64,000 nt of DNA, taken from positions 248,001 through 312,000 of the forward strand of contig JAJTBO010000002.1 in NCBI GenBank assembly GCA_021286855.1, given 5' to 3'. Under the pieces are notes generated by a model. That model worked only from the letters and a program-made list of their open reading frames with translations. It did no database searches and was not told the DNA's origin. Shown here piece after piece: positions 13,019 to 24,835 of this stretch (its first letter is position 1; each line of letters begins with the position of its first letter). Source of the DNA: Hyphomicrobiales bacterium (lineage in GTDB: Bacteria > Pseudomonadota > Alphaproteobacteria > Rhizobiales > Ancalomicrobiaceae). The translations under genes and the position numbers were made by a program.

Positions 13019-13094
13019 GGGGCTGTAGCTCAGATGGGAGAGCGCTGCAATCGCACTGCAGAGGTCAGGGGTTCGATTCCCCTCAGCTCCACCA
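13019..13094 (+). tRNA. tRNA-Ala (anticodon CGC)
   Basis: A 76-base cloverleaf with encoded CCA. The 7-bp acceptor stem GGGGCTG/CAGCTCC has one G-T pair; a D arm GTAGCTCAGATGGGAGAGC follows; the anticodon stem CTGCA/TGCAG encloses the loop ATCGCAC with U33 and anticodon CGC; the T arm is AGGGG-TTCGATT-CCCCT. It decodes GCG alanine codons, frequent in this G+C-rich genome. No copy of its 3' end was seen downstream, so there is no sign of use as an integration site. Confidence 0.97.
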
Positions 13095-13670: not shown

Positions 13671-14183
13671 ATGAATGCCATGCCGATCGGCAGGGCGCGC
13701 AACGCCGTCGCGTTGTTCGCGATGCTGATGCTCATCTGGATCATGCTCGAGGGGTCGGTCGCGATCGACGTGCTGCTCGTCGGAGCGGTCGCCTCGGCGC
13801 TCGTCACGTTCGTCCAGCGCGACGGTCTGCCGATCGTCACCGAGGCGCGGTTCACCCGCGAGGCGGCGATCGCGGCGGTCGAATACGTCGGCTACTTCCT
13901 GAAGGAACTGGTGAAGTCGAACCTGCACATCGCCGCGGTGGTGGCGACCCCGTCGCTGCCGGTCAGGCCCGGCATCGTCAAGGTCCACACCCGCCTGAAG
14001 AGCCGGACGGCGCGGGTGCTGCTCGCCAATTCGATCACCCTGACGCCGGGCACGCTCACCGTCGAGATCGAGGGCGAGTGGCTCTGGGTGCATTGGGTGA
14101 CGATGGAGGCGGCCGATCCGGAGGAGGCGACGCAGCAGATCGTCGCCGGTTTCGAACACTATCTGGAGGCGATCTATGGCTGA
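13671..14183 (+). CDS. MrpE/MbhA-like membrane subunit
   Basis: A 170-residue protein of the MnhE/MrpE family. The N-terminal ~50 residues hold two membrane helices (AVALFAMLMLIWIMLEGSV and IDVLLVGAVASALVTFV). The cytoplasmic C-terminal domain carries the family signature SRTARVLLANSITLTPGTLT and ends TQQIVAGFEHYLEAIYG. In Mrp antiporters and Mbh/Mbx complexes this subunit is part of the sodium-translocating module. First gene of a continuous operon; ATG 13671 has GGGAG about 10 bases upstream, and it overlaps the next gene by 8 bases. Confidence 0.9.
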   Translation: MNAMPIGRARNAVALFAMLMLIWIMLEGSVAIDVLLVGAVASALVTFVQRDGLPIVTEARFTREAAIAAVEYVGYFLKELVKSNLHIAAVVATPSLPVRPGIVKVHTRLKSRTARVLLANSITLTPGTLTVEIEGEWLWVHWVTMEAADPEEATQQIVAGFEHYLEAIYG

Positions 14184-14436
14184 GGCGTCGATCTACCTCG
14201 CGGCTCTGCTCGCCGCCGTCGCCTTCGTCCTGGCGATGGCGCGTTTCGTGCGCGGGCCGCTCACCTTCGATCGGGTCGTCGCCTTCGACGTCATGACCAT
14301 CGTCGGAATCACCGGCATCGTGCTGGTCGCGGTGGTGGAGGACCGGGCGATCTATCTCGACGTGGCGCTGATCTACGCGCTGATGTCGTTCCTCGGCGTC
14401 ATCGTCGTCGCCCGCCATCTCGAAAGGGGGCTGTGA
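14176..14436 (+). CDS. MrpF/MbhB-like membrane subunit
   Basis: An 86-residue protein of three predicted membrane helices, matching MnhF/MrpF: VRGPLTFDRVVAFDVMTIVG, the hallmark RVVAxD region with its membrane aspartate, and a final helix IYLDVALIYALMSFLGVIVVA. Component of the Mrp-like ion-translocating arm. Overlaps mrpE by 8 bases and its stop overlaps the following start, so translation is probably coupled. Confidence 0.9.
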   Translation: MAEASIYLAALLAAVAFVLAMARFVRGPLTFDRVVAFDVMTIVGITGIVLVAVVEDRAIYLDVALIYALMSFLGVIVVARHLERGL

Positions 14437-14774
14437 TGACGAGCCTGCTCGCCGTCCTCGGCGGTCTCCTTCTCGTCGCCGGCGCCTCCTTCCTGCTCCT
14501 CGGCGGGCTCGGACTGGTGCGCATGCCCGACGTCTACAACCGCATTCAGGCCGGCACCAAGGCGACCACCCTCGGCACGCTGCTGACGCTCGCCGGCGTC
14601 GCCTGCCTGCACCCGGGGTGGACGATGAAGCTCCTGCTGATCGGCCTGTTCCTCTTGTTCACCAATCCGCTGTCGTCGCAGGTGCTCGCCCGCGCGGCGC
14701 ATCGCTCGAAGGTCGCGCCGACGGCGGCGACCGAGGTCGATCTGCTCGACGAGACCAAGGGAGACGGCGCATGA
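14436..14774 (+). CDS. MrpG/MbhC-like membrane subunit
   Basis: A 112-residue MnhG/MrpG family protein with three helices and the family segment GLGLVRMPDVYNRIQAGTKA, where RMPDVYxRxHA is typical of MrpG, followed by ATTLGTLLTLAG and LFLLFTNPLSSQVLARAAHR. Start at ATG 14436 (TGATG overlap with the previous stop); a GTG one codon earlier at 14433 is equally possible. Part of the Mrp-like module. Confidence 0.9.
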   Translation: MTSLLAVLGGLLLVAGASFLLLGGLGLVRMPDVYNRIQAGTKATTLGTLLTLAGVACLHPGWTMKLLLIGLFLLFTNPLSSQVLARAAHRSKVAPTAATEVDLLDETKGDGA

Positions 14775-15025
14775 GCGTGCTGTTGCCGGCCATGACCGGG
14801 CTGCTCGCCGTGGCGATGCTGGTCGCCGCGGCGATGACGATCGTCACCCGCAGCCTGCCGATCGCCATCCTGGCGGCCGGGGCGGTGAGCCTCTTCGCCT
14901 CGGTCCTGTTCCTCCTTCTGGCGTCGCCCGACGTGGCGATGACCGAGGCGGCGATCGGCAGCGGGCTGACCACCTTCCTGTTCTTCTTCGTGCTCGGCCG
15001 GGTCGGAGGGCGAGACAATGGTTAG
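14771..15025 (+). CDS. MbhD-like membrane subunit (DUF4040)
   Basis: An 84-residue protein with three predicted membrane helices and the DUF4040/MbhD signature FLLLASPDVAMTEAAIGSG. This segment corresponds to part of the C-terminal region of MrpA, which in Mbh/Mbx complexes is a separate small subunit. Its presence without an MrpA N-terminal antiporter domain in the operon points to an Mbh/Mbx architecture and not a plain Mrp antiporter. ATGA overlap with mrpG and 8-base overlap with the next gene. Confidence 0.85.
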   Translation: MSVLLPAMTGLLAVAMLVAAAMTIVTRSLPIAILAAGAVSLFASVLFLLLASPDVAMTEAAIGSGLTTFLFFFVLGRVGGRDNG

Positions 15026-15722
15026 GCATCTCGCGGCGGGGCTGCTGACGATCGGGCTGGCGCTGGCGTTCGCCGCGCTCGTCCTCGGTTATCAGCCGGA
15101 TGCGGAGCTCAATCGCACCGCGCTCTATTACGCCGAGAACACCGCGAAGGATCTCGGCTCGCAGAATATCGTCACCGCGATCGTGGTGACCTATCGCGGC
15201 CTCGACACGCTCGGCGAGGTCACGGTGCTGTTCCTGGCCGCGGCGATCGTCGGGTTGATCCTGGCGCCGGGCCGCGGCGCGGAGGGCGCCGGTCGGCGCG
15301 GCGCGCCGCCGCCCGGCGAATTGCTGACGACCGGCAGCCGCATGCTGACGCCGCTGATCCTGATCACCGGCATCTATGTCTTCGTCAACGGCCACCTGAC
15401 CCCGGGCGGCGGCTTCCAGGGCGGCGCGATCCTCGCGTCGGCGGCGCTCCTGGTGCTGCTCGCCGATCCCGGCCATCGCTTCGCGCATCGGACGATCGAG
15501 ACGATCGAGGGCGTGTCGGGCGTCGCCTATGTGGCCGTCGGCCTCCTCGGCCTGGCCTTCGCCGGCGGCTTTCTCGACAACCGCTTCTTGCCGACGGGCC
15601 GTTTCGGCGCGCTCCTCTCGGCCGGGGCGATCCCGGTGATCTACACGCTGATCGGCCTCAAGGTCGGCGCCGAATTCGCCTCGATCCTGGCGAACCTCAC
15701 GGAAACGGAGGAGCGGCGATGA
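15018..15722 (+). CDS. MrpB-like subunit (MbhE+MbhF equivalent)
   Basis: A 234-residue membrane protein. The N-terminal ~95 residues (YYAENTAKDLGSQNIVTAIV, YRGLDTLGEVTVLFLAAA) match the MbhE-like end of MrpA. After a short proline- and glycine-rich linker, the C-terminal ~140 residues are MnhB/MrpB-like (ITGIYVFVNGHLTPGGGFQG, then AYVAVGLLGLAFAGGFLDN and IYTLIGLKVGAEFASIL). Joining the E- and F-like parts in one protein agrees with Mbx-type operons, which have an F gene and no separate E. Translationally coupled on both sides. Confidence 0.88.
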   Translation: MVRHLAAGLLTIGLALAFAALVLGYQPDAELNRTALYYAENTAKDLGSQNIVTAIVVTYRGLDTLGEVTVLFLAAAIVGLILAPGRGAEGAGRRGAPPPGELLTTGSRMLTPLILITGIYVFVNGHLTPGGGFQGGAILASAALLVLLADPGHRFAHRTIETIEGVSGVAYVAVGLLGLAFAGGFLDNRFLPTGRFGALLSAGAIPVIYTLIGLKVGAEFASILANLTETEERR

Positions 15723-16075
15723 TCACTCTTTCGCTCGCCGTCGGTTTCGCCCTGGTCCTCGCCGGCCTCTACGGCGCGCTGACCAACCGCAACATCCTGC
15801 GGATGATCGTCTCCTTCACCGTCGCCGACACCGGCGTCAACATCGTGTTGGTCGCGGTCGGTTGGATGCGCGGCCGCACGGCGCCGATCCTCGACGACGC
15901 GGTTCCGATCGCCGAAGCCGCGCAGCGGATCATCGATCCGTTGCCGCAGGCGCTGGTGCTCACCGCCATCGTCATCGGCCTCGGCGTCACCGCCCTGATG
16001 CTCGCCTATGCGTACCGGCTGTATTCGACCGCCGGCACGCTCGACGTCTCGAAGTTCACGGAGCTGAAATGGTGA
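15719..16075 (+). CDS. MrpC/NuoK-like membrane subunit (MbhG equivalent)
   Basis: A 118-residue, three-helix protein of the MnhC/NuoK family (GLYGALTNRNILRMIVSFTV, GVNIVLVAVGW, PQALVLTAIVIGLGVTALML). NuoK-type subunits carry a proton-channel glutamate in helix 2; the MrpC type differs, and here the helix reads NIVLVAVGW. It is coupled by ATGA overlap to the MrpB-like gene and by a 7-base overlap to the pump-fusion gene. Confidence 0.9.
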   Translation: MITLSLAVGFALVLAGLYGALTNRNILRMIVSFTVADTGVNIVLVAVGWMRGRTAPILDDAVPIAEAAQRIIDPLPQALVLTAIVIGLGVTALMLAYAYRLYSTAGTLDVSKFTELKW

Positions 16076-19000
16076 GCCCTCTCTTCATTTTGGCCATCGG
16101 GCTCGGCGCCGCCTTCGGCGTCGGCCTTCTCGACGCCCGGTCGCGAGGGCTGGCCTTCGCGATCACGCTGGCGGGGCTCGCCGCGATGAGCGCGATCGGG
16201 GCCGAATGGCTGTGGGCCTTCGTGGTCGACGGCGTCCAGCCGATCATGGTCATGACCGCCGGCGCGCCGCCGCCCTTCGCGATCAATCTGCGCATGGGGC
16301 CGGCCGAGGCGGCGTTGGTGGCGATCATCTGCCTGACCGGCCTCCTCTCCGCGATCCAGATGCGCGAGGCGTTGTTGCGGCTCGGCCGACGCGCCATGGC
16401 GGTGCTGTCGATCGCGGTGATGGCGCTCTCGGGCATCGTCCTGACCCGCGACGTGTTCAACCTGTTCGTGTTCTTCGAACTGGTGGTGATCGCCACCGGC
16501 GGTCTGGTGCTCCTGTCCGACGACCCGCGCGCGACGGCGGCGGGGTTCAAATACCTGGTGGTGTCGCAGGTGGCGTCGATGCTGATGCTGATCGGCATCG
16601 TCTTCGTCTATCACGCCGGCGGCAGCCTCAACGTCGACGACCTGATCGGCTCGCCGGCGGTGGCGGCGGGCGGCGCGGCGGGACTCGCCTTCCTCCTGCT
16701 GATGATCGCGCTGGTGCTCGAGACGAAGCCGTTCCCGGCCAATGGTTGGGCGCTCGACGTCTACGAGGCCGCGCATCCCGGCTTCGGGGCGATCTTCTCG
16801 GCGGCCTCGGCCTCGGCGGCGCTCTATGCGGTCGACAAGGTGGTCGGCGTCGGCGGCGCGGCGTTCCTGCCGATGCTCACGGCGATCGGCCTCGTGACCT
16901 TCGTCGGGGCCAATCTCCTCGCCCTGTCGCAGACGGTCGACCGGCGTCTGCTCGGTTATTCGTCGGTGGCCCAGGTCGGTCTGGTGCTGGCGGTGATCGG
17001 ACTGCGCGATCTGCTCGGCGAGCGCTACCTGATGGTCGCCGGCGGGCTCCTGGTGGCGCATGCGGTGGCCAAGGCGGGGTTGTTCTGGCTCTCCGAACTG
17101 GTGGCGGGACGCGACTTCGCCGCCTGGGCGGCGTTGCGGCGGCGGCCGATCCTGATCTTCGCCTTCGCCACCTTCGTCGCGATGCTCGCCGGTCTGCCGC
17201 CGTTCCCCGGCTTCTACGCCAAATGGGAGCTGACGCATGCGCTGATGGCGCAAGGACGGCCGGAGTTGGTGGCGGCGATCCTGGTCGGAGCGCTGTTCGA
17301 GGCGGGCTATCTCTTCCGCTGGTTCGGGCGCGCGCTGAAGGCGACGCCGCCGGAGGGCGTTTCCGACCTTCCGGTCTCGAAGGTCGGCGTCGTCGTCCTC
17401 ACCGCGCTCGGCGGTTGGGTCCTCGGCGAGGTCTGGGGCGCGGCGTCTCCTTATGGCGACGTGCTCGGGGCGACGCCGCTCCTGGTCGCGCTCGCCTTCC
17501 TGGCGCTCGAACCGCTGTCGGCGCGGATCAAGAACACGCTGGCGATCGTCGTCCTGGTCGCCGCCTTCGCCTCCGGCTGGCCGCACTTCGATCCGTTGCA
17601 GCTGATCTTCGCGGCGATCGTCCTCCTCGGCGGAGCGGTGATCTTCGTCGCCAGCTACGCCTTCGCCGACGGCCGGCGGACCGGATTCTACCCTTCCGCG
17701 ATGCTGATGTACGCCGGCTTGGCGATGTTGATCGTGGCGAAGGACACCTTCGGCTTCTTCGCCGCCTGGGAGGTTCTGACGATCGGGTCCTACTTCCTGA
17801 TCCTGCGCGGCAAGCAGTCCGAGCCGCACGCCCTCTCCTATGTGGTGTTCTCGCTCGGCGGGGCCTTCGCCATCCTGGCGGGCTTCGCGCTGGCGGCCGA
17901 GACGACGGCGCTCTTCCCGATCGCCGGGCTGAAGCAGGTCGCGGCTCCGTTCGCGCCCTGGGTCTTCGTCCTGCTGGCGGTCGGCTTCATGACGAAGACG
18001 GCGTCGATCGGCCTGCACATCTGGCTGCCGGGCGCGCATGCCGAGGCGGAGACCGACGTCTCGCCGATGGTCTCCGGCATCCTGCTGAAGGCGGGACTGT
18101 TCGGCCTCTTCATGCTGTTGATGCAGATGGGCCGGCAGTCGCTCTACGGGGTCGATCTGACGCTGGTGCTGTTGTGGATCGGCGCGGCTTCGGCGCTGCT
18201 CGGCAATCTGATGGCGGTGTTCCAGGAGGACGCCAAGCGGCTGCTCGCCTATTCGTCGATCGGACAGATGGGCTATGCGGTGTTCGGCCTCGCCCTGATG
18301 AACCACCTCGGTTGGCTGATGGCGCTGATGTTCGTCATCAACCACTACATCTACAAGTCGTCGCTGTTCCTGTCGGTCGGCGGCGTCTACAAGCGCACCG
18401 GCACGCGCGAGATGTACCGCATGGGCGGTCTGATCACGCTGATGCCGCTGACCTTCTTCGCGGTGCTGGTCGGCATCGTGGCGATGTCGGGGGTGCCGCC
18501 GCTGTCCGGCTTCGGCGGACGGTGGATCTTCTACAACGCGATCCTCGACACGCCGGCGCGGCTGCCGATGGTGGTGATCTTCCTCTCCGGCCCGATCGCC
18601 TTCCTCTATCTGTTCCGGCTGATCCACACGATCTTCCTCGGCCAGCTCAAGGACGAGCACCGGCGGATCCGCGAGGCGCCGATCTGGTTGATCGCGCCGC
18701 AGATGCTCTATGTCGCCTTCCTGATCGGCTTCGCCCTCTTCCCGGGCCTGGCCCTGCGCAAGGTCGACGCCTTCATCTCGCGCTTCATTCCCGAACACGC
18801 GCTGAACTGGGACGGGCTGACGATCACCAGCGCCTACGGCTACTGGAACCCGGTCTCGATCATGATCGTCATCGTGGTGATCTTCGTGACGCTCCTGGCG
18901 TGGCTCGTCTTCCTCAATCGTCGCGCGCAGATGGTGAAGCAGTTCAACATCGTCTTCGCGGCGGAGCGGCCCTACCGGCCGGAGACGACGCATTTCGCCT

Positions 19001-19206
19001 GGAACTTCTTCGCGCCCTATCGGCGCGCCCTCGGCCCCCTGACGGAGCCGTATTTCGAACGGTTCTGGCAGGCGCAGACCGACGCCCTGCACGGTTGGGC
19101 CGGCTTCGCCCGCCGGTTCTACACCGGCGACGGCCAAGTCTACGCCTTCCAGGTGGTCGGTTTCGTGGTGATCGTCTGTTGGGCTGCGATGGGGATGACG
19201 CCATGA
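16069..19206 (+). CDS. Fused double antiporter-type subunit (MrpD-MrpD, MbxH-H' equivalent)
   Basis: A single 1,045-residue protein holding two complete proton-conducting (MrpD/NuoM/NuoN-like) units in tandem; family members are normally ~500 residues. Unit 1 (about 1-480) has the helix-5 glutamate in FFELVVIATGG, lysines in LETKPFPANGWALD and HAVAKAGLF, and ends near AKWELTHALM. Unit 2 (about 485-1045) has WEVLTIGSYFL, MTKTASIGLHIWLPGAHAEA, LLKAGLF and HYIYKSSLFL, then PPLSGFGGRW. Both units keep the charged residues of the channel, so both should pump. No stop or frameshift lies between them. The C terminus (PETTHFAWNFFAPYRRALG) looks like the lateral tail of MbhH/HyfF-type subunits. Overlaps NuoH-like start by ATGA. 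Confidence 0.9.
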   Translation: MVSPLFILAIGLGAAFGVGLLDARSRGLAFAITLAGLAAMSAIGAEWLWAFVVDGVQPIMVMTAGAPPPFAINLRMGPAEAALVAIICLTGLLSAIQMREALLRLGRRAMAVLSIAVMALSGIVLTRDVFNLFVFFELVVIATGGLVLLSDDPRATAAGFKYLVVSQVASMLMLIGIVFVYHAGGSLNVDDLIGSPAVAAGGAAGLAFLLLMIALVLETKPFPANGWALDVYEAAHPGFGAIFSAASASAALYAVDKVVGVGGAAFLPMLTAIGLVTFVGANLLALSQTVDRRLLGYSSVAQVGLVLAVIGLRDLLGERYLMVAGGLLVAHAVAKAGLFWLSELVAGRDFAAWAALRRRPILIFAFATFVAMLAGLPPFPGFYAKWELTHALMAQGRPELVAAILVGALFEAGYLFRWFGRALKATPPEGVSDLPVSKVGVVVLTALGGWVLGEVWGAASPYGDVLGATPLLVALAFLALEPLSARIKNTLAIVVLVAAFASGWPHFDPLQLIFAAIVLLGGAVIFVASYAFADGRRTGFYPSAMLMYAGLAMLIVAKDTFGFFAAWEVLTIGSYFLILRGKQSEPHALSYVVFSLGGAFAILAGFALAAETTALFPIAGLKQVAAPFAPWVFVLLAVGFMTKTASIGLHIWLPGAHAEAETDVSPMVSGILLKAGLFGLFMLLMQMGRQSLYGVDLTLVLLWIGAASALLGNLMAVFQEDAKRLLAYSSIGQMGYAVFGLALMNHLGWLMALMFVINHYIYKSSLFLSVGGVYKRTGTREMYRMGGLITLMPLTFFAVLVGIVAMSGVPPLSGFGGRWIFYNAILDTPARLPMVVIFLSGPIAFLYLFRLIHTIFLGQLKDEHRRIREAPIWLIAPQMLYVAFLIGFALFPGLALRKVDAFISRFIPEHALNWDGLTITSAYGYWNPVSIMIVIVVIFVTLLAWLVFLNRRAQMVKQFNIVFAAERPYRPETTHFAWNFFAPYRRALGPLTEPYFERFWQAQTDALHGWAGFARRFYTGDGQVYAFQVVGFVVIVCWAAMGMTP

Positions 19207-20108
19207 CCTTCGAGTGGATCAAGATTCCTCAGTCGCTGCTGACGCTGTTCATCGTGCTCAACTACGGCCTGTTGTTGACCGCGCTGGTGCAGAAGATCGC
19301 CGCTCGGGCCGGTCGTCGGCACGGCATTCCGATCTGGCAGAACTACGTCGATCTCCTGAAGAACTACGGCCTCAGGACCAACATCACCCATGGCGTGATG
19401 TACTATCTCGGGCCGGTGTTCCGGCTCTCCGGCGGCGTCGGGCTCCTGCTGTTCGTGCCGACGATCTACGGTTCGGAGATGTTCTCCAACCTGTCGTTCG
19501 CCGGCGATCTGATCCTGGCGCTCTACTTCATCTTCTTCGGGACGCTGGGCATGGCGCTGGGCGCCGGCGAGAGCGGTCATCCCCACGCCGCGATCGGCGT
19601 CAGCCGCGGCCTGTCGCAGGTGACGGCGGCGGAGCTGCCGCTGGCGCTGGCGGTGTTCTCGGTGGCGCTGCAGTACCACACGCTGTCGGTCACCGACATC
19701 GTCGCGGCGCAGCAGGGCGGCGTCGCGCATTGGACGCTCGTCACCAATCCGCTCGCCGTCGTGGCCGGCATGTTCTCCTTCCTCGGATCGATGATGCGGT
19801 CGCCGTTCGACGTCGTTCTGGCTCCGCAGGAGATCCCGATCGGCCCGCCGACCGAATATCACTCCTCCTATCTCGCCCTGATGCAGACCAATCGGGCGAT
19901 CTTTCCGGTCGCCAAGATGGTGATCTACATGAATCTGTTCTTCGGCGGGGCGAGCAGCTGGGCGGAATTCTGTCTGAAGATCTTCTTGATCTACATGGTC
20001 TCGGCGCTGGTCGGCGTCGTCTTCCCGCGCTTCCGGGTCGAGCAGTCGATCCGTTGGTTCCTGACCTGGGCGGTGCCGGTCGGCGTCGCCGCCATTCTCC
20101 TCGTGTGA
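19203..20108 (+). CDS. NuoH/MbhM-like membrane subunit
   Basis: A 301-residue, multi-helix protein of the complex I subunit 1 / hydrogenase subunit 4 (HyfC, MbhM) family, which anchors the soluble redox arm to the pumps. Signature segments include QNYVDLLKNYGL, MRSPFDVVLAPQEI, GPPTEYHSSYLALMQTNR and a C-terminal helix pair. The acidic loop (PFDxxxAxxEI, followed by TEY) matches the conserved NuoH quinone-side loop pattern. Coupled to the pump fusion upstream and 8 bases from the NuoB-like gene. Confidence 0.9.
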   Translation: MTFEWIKIPQSLLTLFIVLNYGLLLTALVQKIAARAGRRHGIPIWQNYVDLLKNYGLRTNITHGVMYYLGPVFRLSGGVGLLLFVPTIYGSEMFSNLSFAGDLILALYFIFFGTLGMALGAGESGHPHAAIGVSRGLSQVTAAELPLALAVFSVALQYHTLSVTDIVAAQQGGVAHWTLVTNPLAVVAGMFSFLGSMMRSPFDVVLAPQEIPIGPPTEYHSSYLALMQTNRAIFPVAKMVIYMNLFFGGASSWAEFCLKIFLIYMVSALVGVVFPRFRVEQSIRWFLTWAVPVGVAAILLV

Positions 20109-20116
20109 GGTCTGCG

Positions 20117-20794
20117 ATGCAGCAAGACGACGTCGTCGAACCGCGGGTTCCGGTCAAGGACGAGCTGAAGAAACGGACGGTCAAGGGGCCGGACGGCTTC
20201 GAGTTCGAGGTCGATCCGATCCACGACTACTATTGCGACGCGCGGCCCGAGGTTCGTCCGGGCTCCTACCTCAAGATCGTCGAGGATCTGTTCAACTGGG
20301 CGCGCTCGGAATCGCTGTGGATCCTCGGTTTCGGCACGGGTTGCGGCGCGATCGAGATGCGGCCGCTGATGACGCCGCGGTTCGACGCCTATCGCTACGG
20401 CATCCAGTGGCGGCCGACGCCGCGGCAGGCCAACCTCTTCGTGATCTCCGGCTATCTGTCGGTGAAGACGCTGAAGCGGGTGATCCGCTCCTACGAGCAG
20501 ATGCAGAACCCGAAATACGTCGTCGGCCTGGGCTCCTGCACGGTCAACGGCGGGATGTACTGGGACAGCTACAACACCATCAAGAAGCTCGACGAATACC
20601 TGCCGGTCGACGTCTACGTCACCGGTTGCATGCCGCGTCCCGAGGCGCTGCTCGCCGGTTTCGAAGAACTGAAGCGGATCATCCGCGCCGGCAAGGGCGA
20701 GGGGGCGAACCTCTACGCGAAGAACTTCGATTGGTACAAGGCCAACCAGAAGCGTGTGATCCACGACTGGGACATGCCGGACTACAATTGGTGA
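20117..20794 (+). CDS. NuoB/MbhJ-like small subunit with altered cluster motif
   Basis: A 225-residue protein of the NuoB/hydrogenase small-subunit family, expected to hold the iron-sulfur cluster nearest the catalytic site. The usual tandem-cysteine motif CCAIEM is GCGAIEM here: Cys76 is kept and residue 77 is glycine. Two further ligands are in place, Cys141 (GLGSCTVNGG) and Cys171 (VTGCMPRPEALL). The cluster would thus have three protein cysteines. The N-terminal ~55 residues before WARSESLWILGFG are a charged extension. This is not a sequencing gap: the frame is intact and the flanking IEMRPLMTPRFD is normal. A similar loss is compatible with the site-differentiated cluster described for archaeal Mbs. 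Confidence 0.88.
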   Translation: MQQDDVVEPRVPVKDELKKRTVKGPDGFEFEVDPIHDYYCDARPEVRPGSYLKIVEDLFNWARSESLWILGFGTGCGAIEMRPLMTPRFDAYRYGIQWRPTPRQANLFVISGYLSVKTLKRVIRSYEQMQNPKYVVGLGSCTVNGGMYWDSYNTIKKLDEYLPVDVYVTGCMPRPEALLAGFEELKRIIRAGKGEGANLYAKNFDWYKANQKRVIHDWDMPDYNW

Positions 20795-20799
20795 GGCCG

Positions 20800-21336
20800 A
20801 TGCGGACACTTCTCGAAAACCTGAAGGAACGATTCCCGCTCGGTCCGATCACCGAACAGCGGCCCGACCTCGTCTTCGTCACGGTCGAGCGGAGCGGCCT
20901 GCGTCCGCTGCTCGCCCACCTGCGCGACCGGGAGGGGTTCACCCATCTGGTGCTGCTCACGGCGGTCGACTGGATCGAGGAGAACCTGTTCCAGCTCACC
21001 TATCTCGTCCACGACCGGCGGCGCGGGCGCGACATCGGCCTGCGCGTCCTCGTGCCGCGCGACGCGGCGGAGATGGAGACCATCCACGACCTGTGGCCGA
21101 CCGCGGCGACCTATCAGCGCGAGCTTCGCGAGATGTTCGGCATCGGCTTCCCCGGCAGCCCGCGGGTCGACGAGGAGTTCATCCTGGAGGGGTGGGTCGA
21201 CCTGCCGCCCTATCGGCGCGACTTCGACACCAAGGCCTTCGCGGAAGAGGCCTTCGCGCATCGCCCCGGTCGCGAGACGCACGACCCGGCGACCCACATG
21301 CGCGAGCGTCTCACCGCGCAGGGGAGAGCGAAATGA
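20800..21336 (+). CDS. NuoC/MbhK-like subunit
   Basis: A 178-residue soluble protein of the complex I 30-kDa / MbhK family, which clamps the NuoB- and NuoD-like subunits. The family signature is WPTAATYQRELREMFGIGF with the typical ERExxxxxG pattern, followed by ILEGWVDLPPYRRDF. It is 5 bases downstream of the NuoB-like gene and overlaps the NuoD-like start by ATGA. In ordinary complex I of this lineage nuoC and nuoD lie in a different operon context, so this is a second, paralogous set. Confidence 0.88.
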   Translation: MRTLLENLKERFPLGPITEQRPDLVFVTVERSGLRPLLAHLRDREGFTHLVLLTAVDWIEENLFQLTYLVHDRRRGRDIGLRVLVPRDAAEMETIHDLWPTAATYQRELREMFGIGFPGSPRVDEEFILEGWVDLPPYRRDFDTKAFAEEAFAHRPGRETHDPATHMRERLTAQGRAK

Positions 21337-22529
21337 CCCGGCACGAGACGATTTCCAACCCCGAGACGGTCCTGCCGGCGACGCCGATCGCGCTCGCGCC
21401 GGAGCGGCCGGCGATCGACCTCTCGTCGGGCAAATATCTCAAACTGTGGCAGGGACCGCAGCATCCCGGCATCACCGGCAACATGTCGGTCGAGCTGACC
21501 GTCTGCGGCGACGAGGTGGTCGAGGGCAAGACCCACGTCGGTTATCTGCATCGCGGCTTCGAGAAGCTGATGGAGCGGCGCAGCTTCATCCAGTGTTTCC
21601 CGATCGTCTGTCGGGTCTGCGTGCCGGAGCCCGACTTCAACGAATATTGCTACGCCGGGGCGATCGAGGAGCTGGCCGGCATCGAGGCGCCGATCCGGGC
21701 GCAGTGGATCCGCACGCTGATCCTGGAGATGGGCCGGATCAACAGCTACCTGATGTATCTCGGCGGTCAGGCGGGGGCGCTCGGCCTCGGCGTCGTCGGC
21801 CAGTGGACGACCTATGTGCGCGATCTGATGCTCGATCGGTTCGAGGAACTGACGGGCGCGCGGATCTACCACATGTTCATCCTGCCCGGCGGCGTGCGCG
21901 ACGGTCTGCCCGAGGGCTTCGACGGCCGGATGGAGGAGACGCTTCGCGAGATCGAGCGCACCATGGCCGACGTCGACGAGGTGATGTTCCACAACGCGGT
22001 CTTCAAGAAGCGCACCAAGGGGGTCGGCGTCATCCCGCCGGAGCTGATCGACGCCTATGGCGTGACCGGTCCCAATGCGCGGGCGGCGGGCCTTCCCAAC
22101 GACGTGCGCCGGGATCAGCCCTATCTGGTCTATCCGCAGCTCTCCTTCGAACCGGTGACGGCGACGGCCTCCGACATGTTCGCGCGGTCCGACGTACGCC
22201 GGCGCGACCTCTTGATGTCGGTCGATCTGATCCGCCAGATCCTCGCCGACATGCCGCGCGAGGGCGCGCTGATGGCGAAACTGCCGAACGTCCTGCACTG
22301 GAAGATCCCGCGCGGCGAGACCTATGTGCGGGGCGAATGCTCGCGCGGCGAATACGGCTATTACGCGGTCACCGACGGCAGCGGCTTCCCGCGCCGGATC
22401 AACGTGCGCGGCCCCTCCTACACCCACGCGATGGCGCTGCTCGAGCATCTGATCCCGGGCACCAACATCGCCGACGTGGCCGCCCTGATGGTGTCGCTGC
22501 ACACCTATCCGCCCGAGATCGAGAGGTGA
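21333..22529 (+). CDS. NuoD/MbhL-like large subunit with one CxxC, no C-terminal Ni motif
   Basis: A 398-residue protein of the complex I 49-kDa / [NiFe]-hydrogenase large-subunit family. The N-terminal motif keeps a cysteine pair, CRVC (Cys93, Cys96), where hydrogenases have RxCGxC and NuoD has lost the cysteines. The C-terminal hydrogenase motif DPCxxC is absent: the protein ends SLHTYPPEIER. Other conserved blocks are QHPGITGNMSVELTV, THVGYLHRGFEKLMERR, ILEMGRINSYLMYLG and RGECSRGEYGYYAVTDG. With two of four Ni ligands missing it should not be an active [NiFe] hydrogenase. This resembles the intermediate Mbx/Mbs branch. Confidence 0.88.
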   Translation: MTRHETISNPETVLPATPIALAPERPAIDLSSGKYLKLWQGPQHPGITGNMSVELTVCGDEVVEGKTHVGYLHRGFEKLMERRSFIQCFPIVCRVCVPEPDFNEYCYAGAIEELAGIEAPIRAQWIRTLILEMGRINSYLMYLGGQAGALGLGVVGQWTTYVRDLMLDRFEELTGARIYHMFILPGGVRDGLPEGFDGRMEETLREIERTMADVDEVMFHNAVFKKRTKGVGVIPPELIDAYGVTGPNARAAGLPNDVRRDQPYLVYPQLSFEPVTATASDMFARSDVRRRDLLMSVDLIRQILADMPREGALMAKLPNVLHWKIPRGETYVRGECSRGEYGYYAVTDGSGFPRRINVRGPSYTHAMALLEHLIPGTNIADVAALMVSLHTYPPEIER

Positions 22530-22535
22530 ACGACC

Positions 22536-24335
22536 ATGCGTGACGTCCTCTCTCCGTTTCTCGCCTGGAAGAACCTGTTCCGCGATCCGGTCTCGATCCC
22601 GGACCCGCTGAACCGGCCGGCGGCGGCGCGCTATCGCGGCTTCCACCAGAACGACGTCGATCTGTGCATCGGCTGCGGCACCTGCGAGACGATCTGCCAG
22701 AACGCCGCCATCGACATGGTTCCGGTTCCCGGCCACGAACCGAAGGACGGCGACAGCGGCCTGAGGCCGCGCATCGACTACGGCCGCTGCTGCTGGTGCG
22801 CGCTGTGCGTCGACGTCTGTACGACCGGCTCGCTGACCATGTCGAACGACTACACCTGGATCGACGCCGATCCGGAGGCGTTCCGCTTCACCCCCGGCGT
22901 CGACGCCAAGCCCTGGGACGGGGCGGAACTCGGCTATCGCCGTCCCGACGGGCATCGGCTGACGGCGCCCGACCGTATCGCGATGGGCGAACGCGAGGCC
23001 GAGGATCGGGTCTGCGACTTCGCCGAGATCGTCCTCGGCTACGACGTCGAGGCGGCGCGGCGCGAAGCCGACCGCTGCGTCGAATGCGGGTTGTGCATCG
23101 CCTCCTGCCCGACCCACATGGACATTCCGCAGTACATCGCGGCGGTGCGCGACGGCGACTACGAACGCGGCGTCGAACTGCTCTATCGGACCAATCCGTT
23201 CTCCAACTCCTGCGGCCGGGTCTGCACCCACGTCTGCGAGACCGCCTGCGCCATGGCCCACGAGGGCGAGCCGATCGCCATCCGTTGGCTGAAGCGCCAC
23301 ATCATGGATCAGGTGCCACCGGCGCGGGTGCACGAGATCGTCGGCGCTCCGGCGCCCTCGACGGGCCGGAAGATCGCCGTCGTCGGCTCCGGTCCGGCCG
23401 GCCTCACCGCGGCCTTCGATCTCGCCAAGGCGGGGCACGCGGTGACGGTCTTCGAGGTCCGCGCCGCGGCCGGCGGCATGCTGCGCTACGGCATCCCGTC
23501 CTATCGACTGCCCTACGACCAGCTCGATCGCGACATCGACGCGATCACGGCGCTCGGCGTCGAGATCCGTTGCGACCAGCAGGTCGGCCGCGACGTCACC
23601 ATGGACGAGCTGCGCGACGGCCACGACGCGGTGATCCTGGCGATCGGCCTGCATCTCGGCCGCTCGCTGCGCATGCCCGGCTCCGACCACCCGCAGGTTC
23701 GCAAGGCGGTCGATCTGTTGCGGGCGGTCACCGACGGCGAGACCTTCGAGGCGCCGCGTCGCGCGGTGGTGATCGGCGGCGGCAACGTCGCCATGGACAT
23801 CGCCCGCACGCTCGCCCGCCTGCAGACGCAGACCCACGGCGCCGTCGACGTCAAGGTGACGACCCGCAAGGAGGCCCCCGGCCAGATGAACGCCGACCCC
23901 GAAGAAGTGCGGGAATGCGGCGAGGAAGGCGTCGAGATCATCTATTCGCGCGGTCCGCAGCGGGTCCTGATCGACGACGACGGCCGGCTCGCCGGGCTCC
24001 TGACGTGGCGCATCGTCTCGCGCGCCGACGCGAAGGGCCGGTTCGTGCCGAGCGCCGACGAGAGCGACGCGATCGTGCATCCGGCCGACATGGTGGTGGA
24101 GGCGACCGGTCAGGCCGCCGACGTCGGCCTGCTCGGCGCGGCGCTGACCGAGGAACTGGAGTGGAACCGCGACCGCCTCGCCGTCGACGCCGAGGGACGG
24201 ACGTCCGTGCCGTGGCTGTGGGCGGCCGGCGACTGCATCGAGGGCTCCGACGCCGTGCATGCGGTGGCGGCGGGCCATCGGGTGGCGGCCGGCATCGCCC
24301 GCGTGTTCGCCGAAGCGACGATTGCGAGGAGCTGA
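22536..24335 (+). CDS. NuoI-like ferredoxin fused to GltD/NfnB-type NAD(P)H oxidoreductase
   Basis: A 599-residue fusion. Residues ~1-130 are a NuoI/MbhN-type di-cluster ferredoxin: CIGCGTCETICQ from Cys44 and CWCALCVDVC after GRC. Residues ~180-270 form the GltD-type N-terminal cluster domain (CVECGLCIASCPTHMDIP, then SCGRVCTHVCETAC). The rest is the pyridine-nucleotide flavoprotein: FAD motif VVGSGPAGLTAAF near 281, NAD(P)H motif VVIGGGNVAMDIA near 411 and the second FAD contact WAAGDCIEGSDAVHAVAAGH. This would link the membrane complex to NAD(P)H or, through the clusters, ferredoxin. Direction of electron flow is not shown by sequence. Confidence 0.9.
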   Translation: MRDVLSPFLAWKNLFRDPVSIPDPLNRPAAARYRGFHQNDVDLCIGCGTCETICQNAAIDMVPVPGHEPKDGDSGLRPRIDYGRCCWCALCVDVCTTGSLTMSNDYTWIDADPEAFRFTPGVDAKPWDGAELGYRRPDGHRLTAPDRIAMGEREAEDRVCDFAEIVLGYDVEAARREADRCVECGLCIASCPTHMDIPQYIAAVRDGDYERGVELLYRTNPFSNSCGRVCTHVCETACAMAHEGEPIAIRWLKRHIMDQVPPARVHEIVGAPAPSTGRKIAVVGSGPAGLTAAFDLAKAGHAVTVFEVRAAAGGMLRYGIPSYRLPYDQLDRDIDAITALGVEIRCDQQVGRDVTMDELRDGHDAVILAIGLHLGRSLRMPGSDHPQVRKAVDLLRAVTDGETFEAPRRAVVIGGGNVAMDIARTLARLQTQTHGAVDVKVTTRKEAPGQMNADPEEVRECGEEGVEIIYSRGPQRVLIDDDGRLAGLLTWRIVSRADAKGRFVPSADESDAIVHPADMVVEATGQAADVGLLGAALTEELEWNRDRLAVDAEGRTSVPWLWAAGDCIEGSDAVHAVAAGHRVAAGIARVFAEATIARS

Positions 24336-24337
24336 CG

Positions 24338-24835
24338 ATGCCCGAAGGCAAAGGCCACGCCGAGCTGAAGACCCTGACCAGCCTCAGGGACGTGCTCACC
24401 GTCGCGACCCGGTTCGAGCGGATCGCGCGGGACTTCTACCGGGATCTCACGCCGAAGGTGAGCAAGAACATCCGCTGGCTGGTCGAGGAGCTGGCGGTCG
24501 AAGAGCAGCGCCACTACGACCTGTTCCTCGAACTCGCCGGCCGCGCCGACGTCGAAGCGGTTCTGCAGGTCGAGGTCGAGCGGCCGGTCGAGGATCGCAA
24601 GATCTTCGACAGCGTCCACGCGCCCGATCTCGGCGAGACGCCGGACGATCAGGCGGTGCTGCAATATGCGCTGGCGCGCGAGCGCGCGGCGATGACGCAA
24701 TACGGGGCGCTGGCCGAGACGACGCCGCCCGGCCCGTTGCGGGACACGTTCCGCTTCCTCGCCAACGAAGAGACGAAGCACAAGAACGAGCTGGAGGTGG
24801 TCTACGACCGGCTCGTCGTCGGCGACGGCGGCTGA
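24338..24835 (+). CDS. Ferritin-like / rubrerythrin-type diiron protein
   Basis: A 165-residue four-helix bundle with diiron ligands typical of the ferritin-like/rubrerythrin fold: a glutamate in RFERIARDFYRDL, the ExxH motif in VEEQRHYDLFLELA, a glutamate in ALARERAAMTQY and a second ExxH in NEETKHKNELEVVY. There is no rubredoxin domain. Family members reduce peroxide or O2 or store iron. It starts 2 bases after the flavoprotein fusion, so it ends the operon and may protect or assist the complex. Its electron donor is unknown. Confidence 0.82.
   Translation: MPEGKGHAELKTLTSLRDVLTVATRFERIARDFYRDLTPKVSKNIRWLVEELAVEEQRHYDLFLELAGRADVEAVLQVEVERPVEDRKIFDSVHAPDLGETPDDQAVLQYALARERAAMTQYGALAETTPPGPLRDTFRFLANEETKHKNELEVVYDRLVVGDGG

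Follow-up and report, generated by a model that had tools for sequence, protein, structure and literature searches.

A ferredoxin-flavoprotein fusion as the predicted NAD(P)H-linked subunit of an MBS/MBX-type complex in about ten bacterial phyla

In the MBS complex of Pyrococcus furiosus, subunit J binds the proximal cluster through three cysteines, and the chemistry takes place at the open iron of this cluster. Subunit L of the same complex is without the complex I quinone residues H38 and Y87, and cysteine mutants have shown that neither L cysteine is needed (PMC7684303). Published models of the Thermotoga maritima MBX complex have ferredoxin, not NAD(P)H, as the donor, and mbxA is induced by S0 (PMC9431562). 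The rhizobial 'green' complex I has a NuoG subunit (PMC4967309). Here we describe an operon related to these systems in a stretch of 64,000 nucleotides from a Hyphomicrobiales bacterium, referred to below as the window.

All genes of the operon are on the + strand. It begins with MrpE-like (MbsA; 13671..14183, PF01899, start codon one of several candidates), MrpF-like (MbsB; 14176..14436, PF04066) and MrpG-like (MbsC; 14433..14774, PF03334) genes, followed by MbhD-like (MbsD; 14771..15025, PF13244), MbhE plus MrpB-like (15018..15722, PF20501 and PF04039) and MrpC/NuoK-like (MbsG; 15719..16075, PF00420) genes. Two MrpD-type antiporter subunits (MbsH'/MbsH) are encoded in one 1045-aa ORF with two PF00361 stretches (16069..19206), a fusion shared by all related clusters whose sequence extends far enough. 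NuoH/MbsM-like (19203..20108, PF00146), NuoB/MbsJ-like (20117..20794), NuoC/MbsK-like (20800..21336, PF00329) and NuoD/MbsL-like (21333..22529; 6u8y_L, 5.4e-91) genes come next, and 6 bp separate the NuoD stop from the ATG of a NuoI-GltD fusion (22536..24335). The subunit set of an MBS/MBX-type complex (Mrp-like A-H together with M, J, K, L and N) is therefore found in one operon. All loci with enough upstream sequence had the same gene order (MrpE-F-G, MbhD, MbhE/MrpB, MrpC, fused MrpD-MrpD, NuoH-B-C-D, NuoI-GltD), which we take to be the order of the archaeal mbs/mbx operons with two fusions added. No nuoE, nuoF or nuoG was found in the operon of the window, as a sequence-only reading of this DNA had claimed, or in that of related loci.

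A rubrerythrin-like gene (24338..24835, +, PF02915) lies 3' of the fusion and is kept in proteobacterial clusters at about 47-77% identity; weaker rubrerythrin-like neighbours (26-35%) were seen in some Spirochaetota, Calditrichota and Bacteroidota. Its product perhaps guards the clusters from oxidants. On the other side, roughly 0.6 kb before the operon, is a tRNA-Ala(CGC) gene (13019-13094), next to which the operon may have been acquired. The operon is patchy in occurrence and was absent from the same-genus genomes G001 and G002.

The fusion gene runs from ATG to stop in a single unbroken frame of 599 aa and encodes a NuoI/MbsN-type ferredoxin and a full NfnL/GltD module in one protein, confirming the architecture that had been proposed from the letters. 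The MbsN/NuoI-like ferredoxin domain (residues 1-125, 22536..22910) has the eight cluster cysteines of two [4Fe-4S] clusters (C44, C47, C50, C54 and C85, C88, C91, C95), and residues 44-98 matched 2x4Fe-4S ferredoxin families in Pfam (Fer4_9, 2.4e-9; Fer4_7, 9.9e-9). A PDB sequence search with residues 4-106 placed MBS subunit N at the top (6u8y_N, E 1.9e-20), with complex I and Mbh subunits ranking behind it at about 1e-10. The NfnL/GltD-like flavoprotein module (residues 141-593, 22956..24314) contains a Fer4_20 domain (residues 160-259, 23013..23312; 3.3e-27) for two further [4Fe-4S] clusters (C181, C184, C187, C191 and C226, C230, C234, C238) and a Pyr_redox_2 domain (residues 279-578; 4.1e-28). 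The cluster cysteines of both halves were invariant in 83/83 fusions. Pfam and the family alignment also located an FAD-binding Rossmann motif, GSGPAG (residues 284-289, 23385..23402), and an NAD(P)-binding one, GGGNVA (residues 414-419, 23775..23792). Residues 145-587 matched NfnL, GltD and DPD in the PDB by sequence (1e-65 to 1e-36). A structure predicted from 5 sequences only reached pLDDT 44, and an alignment of 74 family members was used instead; with it, AlphaFold2 gave pLDDT 91.8 and pTM 0.87. The nearest solved structure to the predicted fold was the large subunit of P. furiosus NfnI (5jfc_L; VIA-align Z 46.5 over residues 141-593, 1.7 A, 436 residues). Fold, two [4Fe-4S] clusters and both Rossmann motifs of an NfnL/GltD flavoprotein are all present, so the Fe-S domain and the FAD and NAD(P)H sites that had been ascribed to the module hold.

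The survey of MbxN fusions that had been suggested for this protein was carried out on 84,980 species genomes, with a query (alignment A2) limited to the ferredoxin half and the linker. It gave 203 relatives. Among the best 80 of these 203, the same ORF ran on into the flavoprotein in 79/80 loci, and the remaining locus is cut by a contig end; when loci from whole-genome searches were included, the fusion was in one ORF in 87/89 loci. This count, drawn from many assemblies, rules out a chance or frameshift fusion. The halves could still act as separate proteins, through processing or an internal start, or the fusion could be a sequence artefact, and one genome (G403, locus L024) does have the ferredoxin and flavoprotein halves in different overlapping frames; the cause may be an error of assembly or a genuine split. 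Given the single ORF elsewhere and a model that packs both halves together confidently, we regard separate halves or an artefact as highly improbable.

Going by record titles, hosts of the fusion were Alpha-, Beta- and Gammaproteobacteria, Magnetococcales, one 'Deltaproteobacteria' record, Bacteroidota, Cloacimonadota, Spirochaetota, Neomarinimicrobiota (Fidelibacterota), Fermentibacterota, Calditrichota, Aminicenantes and Acidobacteriota. Hosts of the operon that can be grown in the laboratory include Thiothrix caldifontis, Celeribacter persicus and Prolixibacter denitrificans. The fusion is thus common to about ten bacterial phyla, and since most host genomes are metagenome bins, claims for any single phylum need care. 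With three candidates scored per genome, the survey frequencies in class and phylum are lower bounds. A search of 72,556 plasmids at E 1e-100 found no relative. Throughout a large bacterial family subunit N normally takes this fused form, and the window protein is no isolated case.

The protein is also of no new kind, being widespread and already catalogued without a function. NCBIfam NF010590/PRK13984 ('putative oxidoreductase', 611 positions), a model without assigned function, has the same fused architecture and matched the window protein end to end (residues 2-592 on model positions 9-607, E 6.6e-247). Because its score of 820-822 bits is under the curated cut-off of 946 bits, we assign the protein to the same architecture and not to the named equivalog. 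In a control search, a T. maritima match to the full-length fused model was above the 946-bit cut-off, a score not expected of a stand-alone GltD; this match is therefore likely fused, and T. maritima very probably has the same fusion. The separate gltD-like gene that the sequence-only reading placed beside some Thermotogales Mbx clusters is accordingly better regarded as probably this fusion. Fused flavoprotein modules formed one clade versus other GltD-like proteins (SH-aLRT 97 and 98), which is consistent with a single fusion event, the outgroup being GltD-like proteins of this bacterial order only. Distances for the flavoprotein and for subunit L were correlated (rho 0.53), and 0/500 permutations were as high.

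Subunits N, J and L each had MBS 6u8y as the best PDB match. In J, the cysteines that match the three catalytic-cluster ligands of MBS (C76, C141 and C171) were invariant in 64/64 sequences, and the fourth proximal-cluster position (G73 in the window) was Gly in 64/64. In L, the complex I Y87 position was Val and the H38 position Thr/Glu, each in 85/85 sequences, so the window subunit is without the quinone His/Tyr; it is also without a NiFe site. These findings suggest a three-Cys proximal cluster of the MBS type. Because of the three-Cys J and the altered L residues, the reaction site appears to be MBS-like and to fit neither hydrogenases nor standard quinone reduction. The earlier comparison with MbhN/MbxN needs correction in that the reaction site resembles that of MBS and not of Mbh or complex I. 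Counting against the MBS-type reading, the position of the second L cysteine retained by MBS is Tyr here. The L subunit also has extra cysteines (C58, C88, C93 and C106) around a CRVCVPEPD loop, present in 37-63 of 85 members.

An NAD(P)H:quinone oxidoreductase, in effect a complex I whose NAD(P)H arm has been exchanged for another, would agree with the subunit set and the fold class. We consider it very unlikely, since Nqo4 H38 and Y87 are both replaced in every member examined and the proximal-cluster cysteines are down to three; a four-Cys N2 cluster is missing together with NuoE/F/G. The subunits are likewise homologous to MbhL/MbhJ, and metagenomes could annotate such clusters as group 4g, but we give practically no weight to a group 4 membrane-bound [NiFe] hydrogenase with an NAD(P)H arm. 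The two CxxC motifs of the large subunit are incomplete, with one of the four NiFe cysteines in the window (C96) and at most two in any member. One of the related loci (L085) is that of Ca. Tenebribacter mawsonii, whose genome paper describes an Mrp-linked group 4g [NiFe] hydrogenase (PMC8542988). This label may deserve a check, because related Cloacimonadota L subunits are without the full NiFe site.

On balance, we think it somewhat more likely than not that the fusion serves as subunit N, the point of electron entry, in a bacterial MBS/MBX-type pump that works as an NAD(P)H:sulfane-sulfur oxidoreductase and is possibly reversible. NAD(P)H would reduce the FAD of the NfnL/GltD module, and electrons would pass through the two [4Fe-4S] clusters of the module and the two NuoI/MbsN clusters to the three-cysteine proximal [4Fe-4S] cluster of the NuoB-like subunit. 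This cluster would reduce the S-S bond of sulfane sulfur (polysulfide-like), with H+/Na+ moved by the fused double MrpD and the other Mrp-like subunits. The anatomy of the fusion makes its NAD(P)H link well supported, and the domain make-up argues strongly that NAD(P)H is the partner of the complex and is met directly, as had been supposed earlier. Sulfane sulfur as the acceptor has moderate support, by analogy with one archaeal enzyme, MBS, and ion pumping would be expected by homology. The induction of T. maritima mbxA by S0 and the soxB gene of the source genome speak for this reading, and the ferredoxin donor of the published T. maritima models speaks against it. We found no biochemistry of the fused family in the literature.

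Electrons might instead enter subunit N from ferredoxin. The complex would then be a pumping ferredoxin:NAD(P)+ oxidoreductase, comparable in effect to Rnf, in which GltD would be the exit to NAD(P)+ and the J/L site would be unused for sulfur. The NuoI/MbsN clusters of MBS take electrons from ferredoxin (PMC7684303), NfnL-type flavins work both ways, and P. furiosus Mbx has in the past been called a ferredoxin:NADP+ oxidoreductase (PMC6349859). This arrangement leaves unexplained both the open three-Cys cluster and VPEPD loop, conserved in all phyla sampled, and the whole electron path to the membrane arm, and we consider it unlikely.

In sulfur-oxidising hosts, the NAD(P)H-sulfane machine may run backwards. 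Reverse operation as the main mode, with the ion-motive force driving electrons from sulfide/polysulfide to NAD(P)+ to feed sulfur oxidisers, would fit the many hosts that are named sulfur oxidisers (Thiohalocapsa, Thiosymbion, Thiothrix, Sedimenticola), and the source genome has soxB, well above the cut-off, as well as another NuoD, of the canonical type, on contig C41. However, sulfur oxidation is not typical of the Bacteroidota, Cloacimonadota and Spirochaetota hosts, and the soxB enrichment was weak. Among relatives, soxB was found in 4/5 that bear the operon versus 21/56 others (p 0.085). The corresponding figures for the phylum were 3/6 versus 56/392 (p 0.045); the numbers are small, the P values are uncorrected for kinship, and the window's genome is counted in both comparisons. 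The link between operon and soxB is thus only suggestive, and we judge the reverse mode quite unlikely. The source genome also carries another group-4-hydrogenase-like cluster (contig C23 of G000, L115:8906-17256), whose large subunit of 594 aa matches both PF00374 and PF00346 and which also contains a multi-antiporter ORF of 1454 aa.

An acidic residue after the second Rossmann strand is typical of NADH sites. GltD, NfnL and DPD have Arg-Arg or Arg-Lys at the position of residues 444-445, a pair that presumably holds the NADPH 2'-phosphate, as in DPD. Inspection of the residues after the GGGNVAMD loop, which had been proposed as a check, gave a divided answer, NADPH-like in the window and NADH-like in most relatives. 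In the window protein R444-K445 (23865..23870, +) follow the strand 439-442, and alignment, tree and model together predict that they contact the 2'-phosphate. Outgroup GltD-like proteins had YRR in 11/13 cases. Within the fused family, YRR(R/T) was found in 21 deep-branching members and Leu/Met-Glu in 60 members; Arg444-Lys445 occurred in the window and its closest relative (L010), and a close relative of the same bacterial family (L031/G013) has retained Leu-Glu. The tree indicated a single basic-to-acidic change followed by one reversal, and the result was the same when the motif columns were removed from a second tree to avoid circularity. We predict, with moderate confidence, that the window protein prefers NADPH; most proteobacterial and Bacteroidota relatives are predicted to prefer NADH. 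The fuller proposal, an NAD(P)H-sulfane pump whose coenzyme was switched from NADPH to NADH and back to NADPH in this lineage via residues 444-445, is one that we put forward tentatively, as possible and somewhat doubtful.

These results offer a concrete NAD(P)H entry point for a complex I relative without NuoE/F/G. They predict that bacterial MBX complexes are NAD(P)H-linked, including the T. maritima complex that was modelled with a ferredoxin donor. The two-residue change is a natural experiment on NADH versus NADPH in an ion pump, whose driving force depends on the coenzyme used. Metagenome studies may mislabel such clusters as group 4 hydrogenases or complex I. No description of an NAD(P)H arm together with an MBS-type site was found in the open literature, and an earlier account of the fusion may exist in subscription papers; this combination and the two-step coenzyme switch are worth following.

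The complex shares the NuoB/C/D/H/I core with complex I, but its operon is without NuoE/F/G and the quinone-site residues are lost. It has MrpD-type pumps like the rhizobial 'green' complex I, with which identity is ruled out by NuoG and gene content. The flavoprotein module is like NfnL/GltD in fold (Z 46.5), in its two [4Fe-4S] clusters and in its FAD and NAD(P) sites; it differs in being fused to a complex-I-type ferredoxin subunit and in its first cluster motif, CxxCxxCxxxCP. No NfnS or GltB partner was found among the identified operon genes, and the complex does not qualify as an Nfn transhydrogenase. P. furiosus MBS (6u8y) is alike in the best matches of N, J and L, in the three-Cys proximal cluster and in the loss of quinone and NiFe residues. 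It differs in that its MbsN stands alone as a ferredoxin subunit and takes its electrons from ferredoxin, in that its H and H' are separate proteins, fused in the window, and in that it has retained C385 of L and also C25 of J, which is non-ligating. Because N is fused to an NfnL module, we describe the complex as MBS-like and not as MBS itself.
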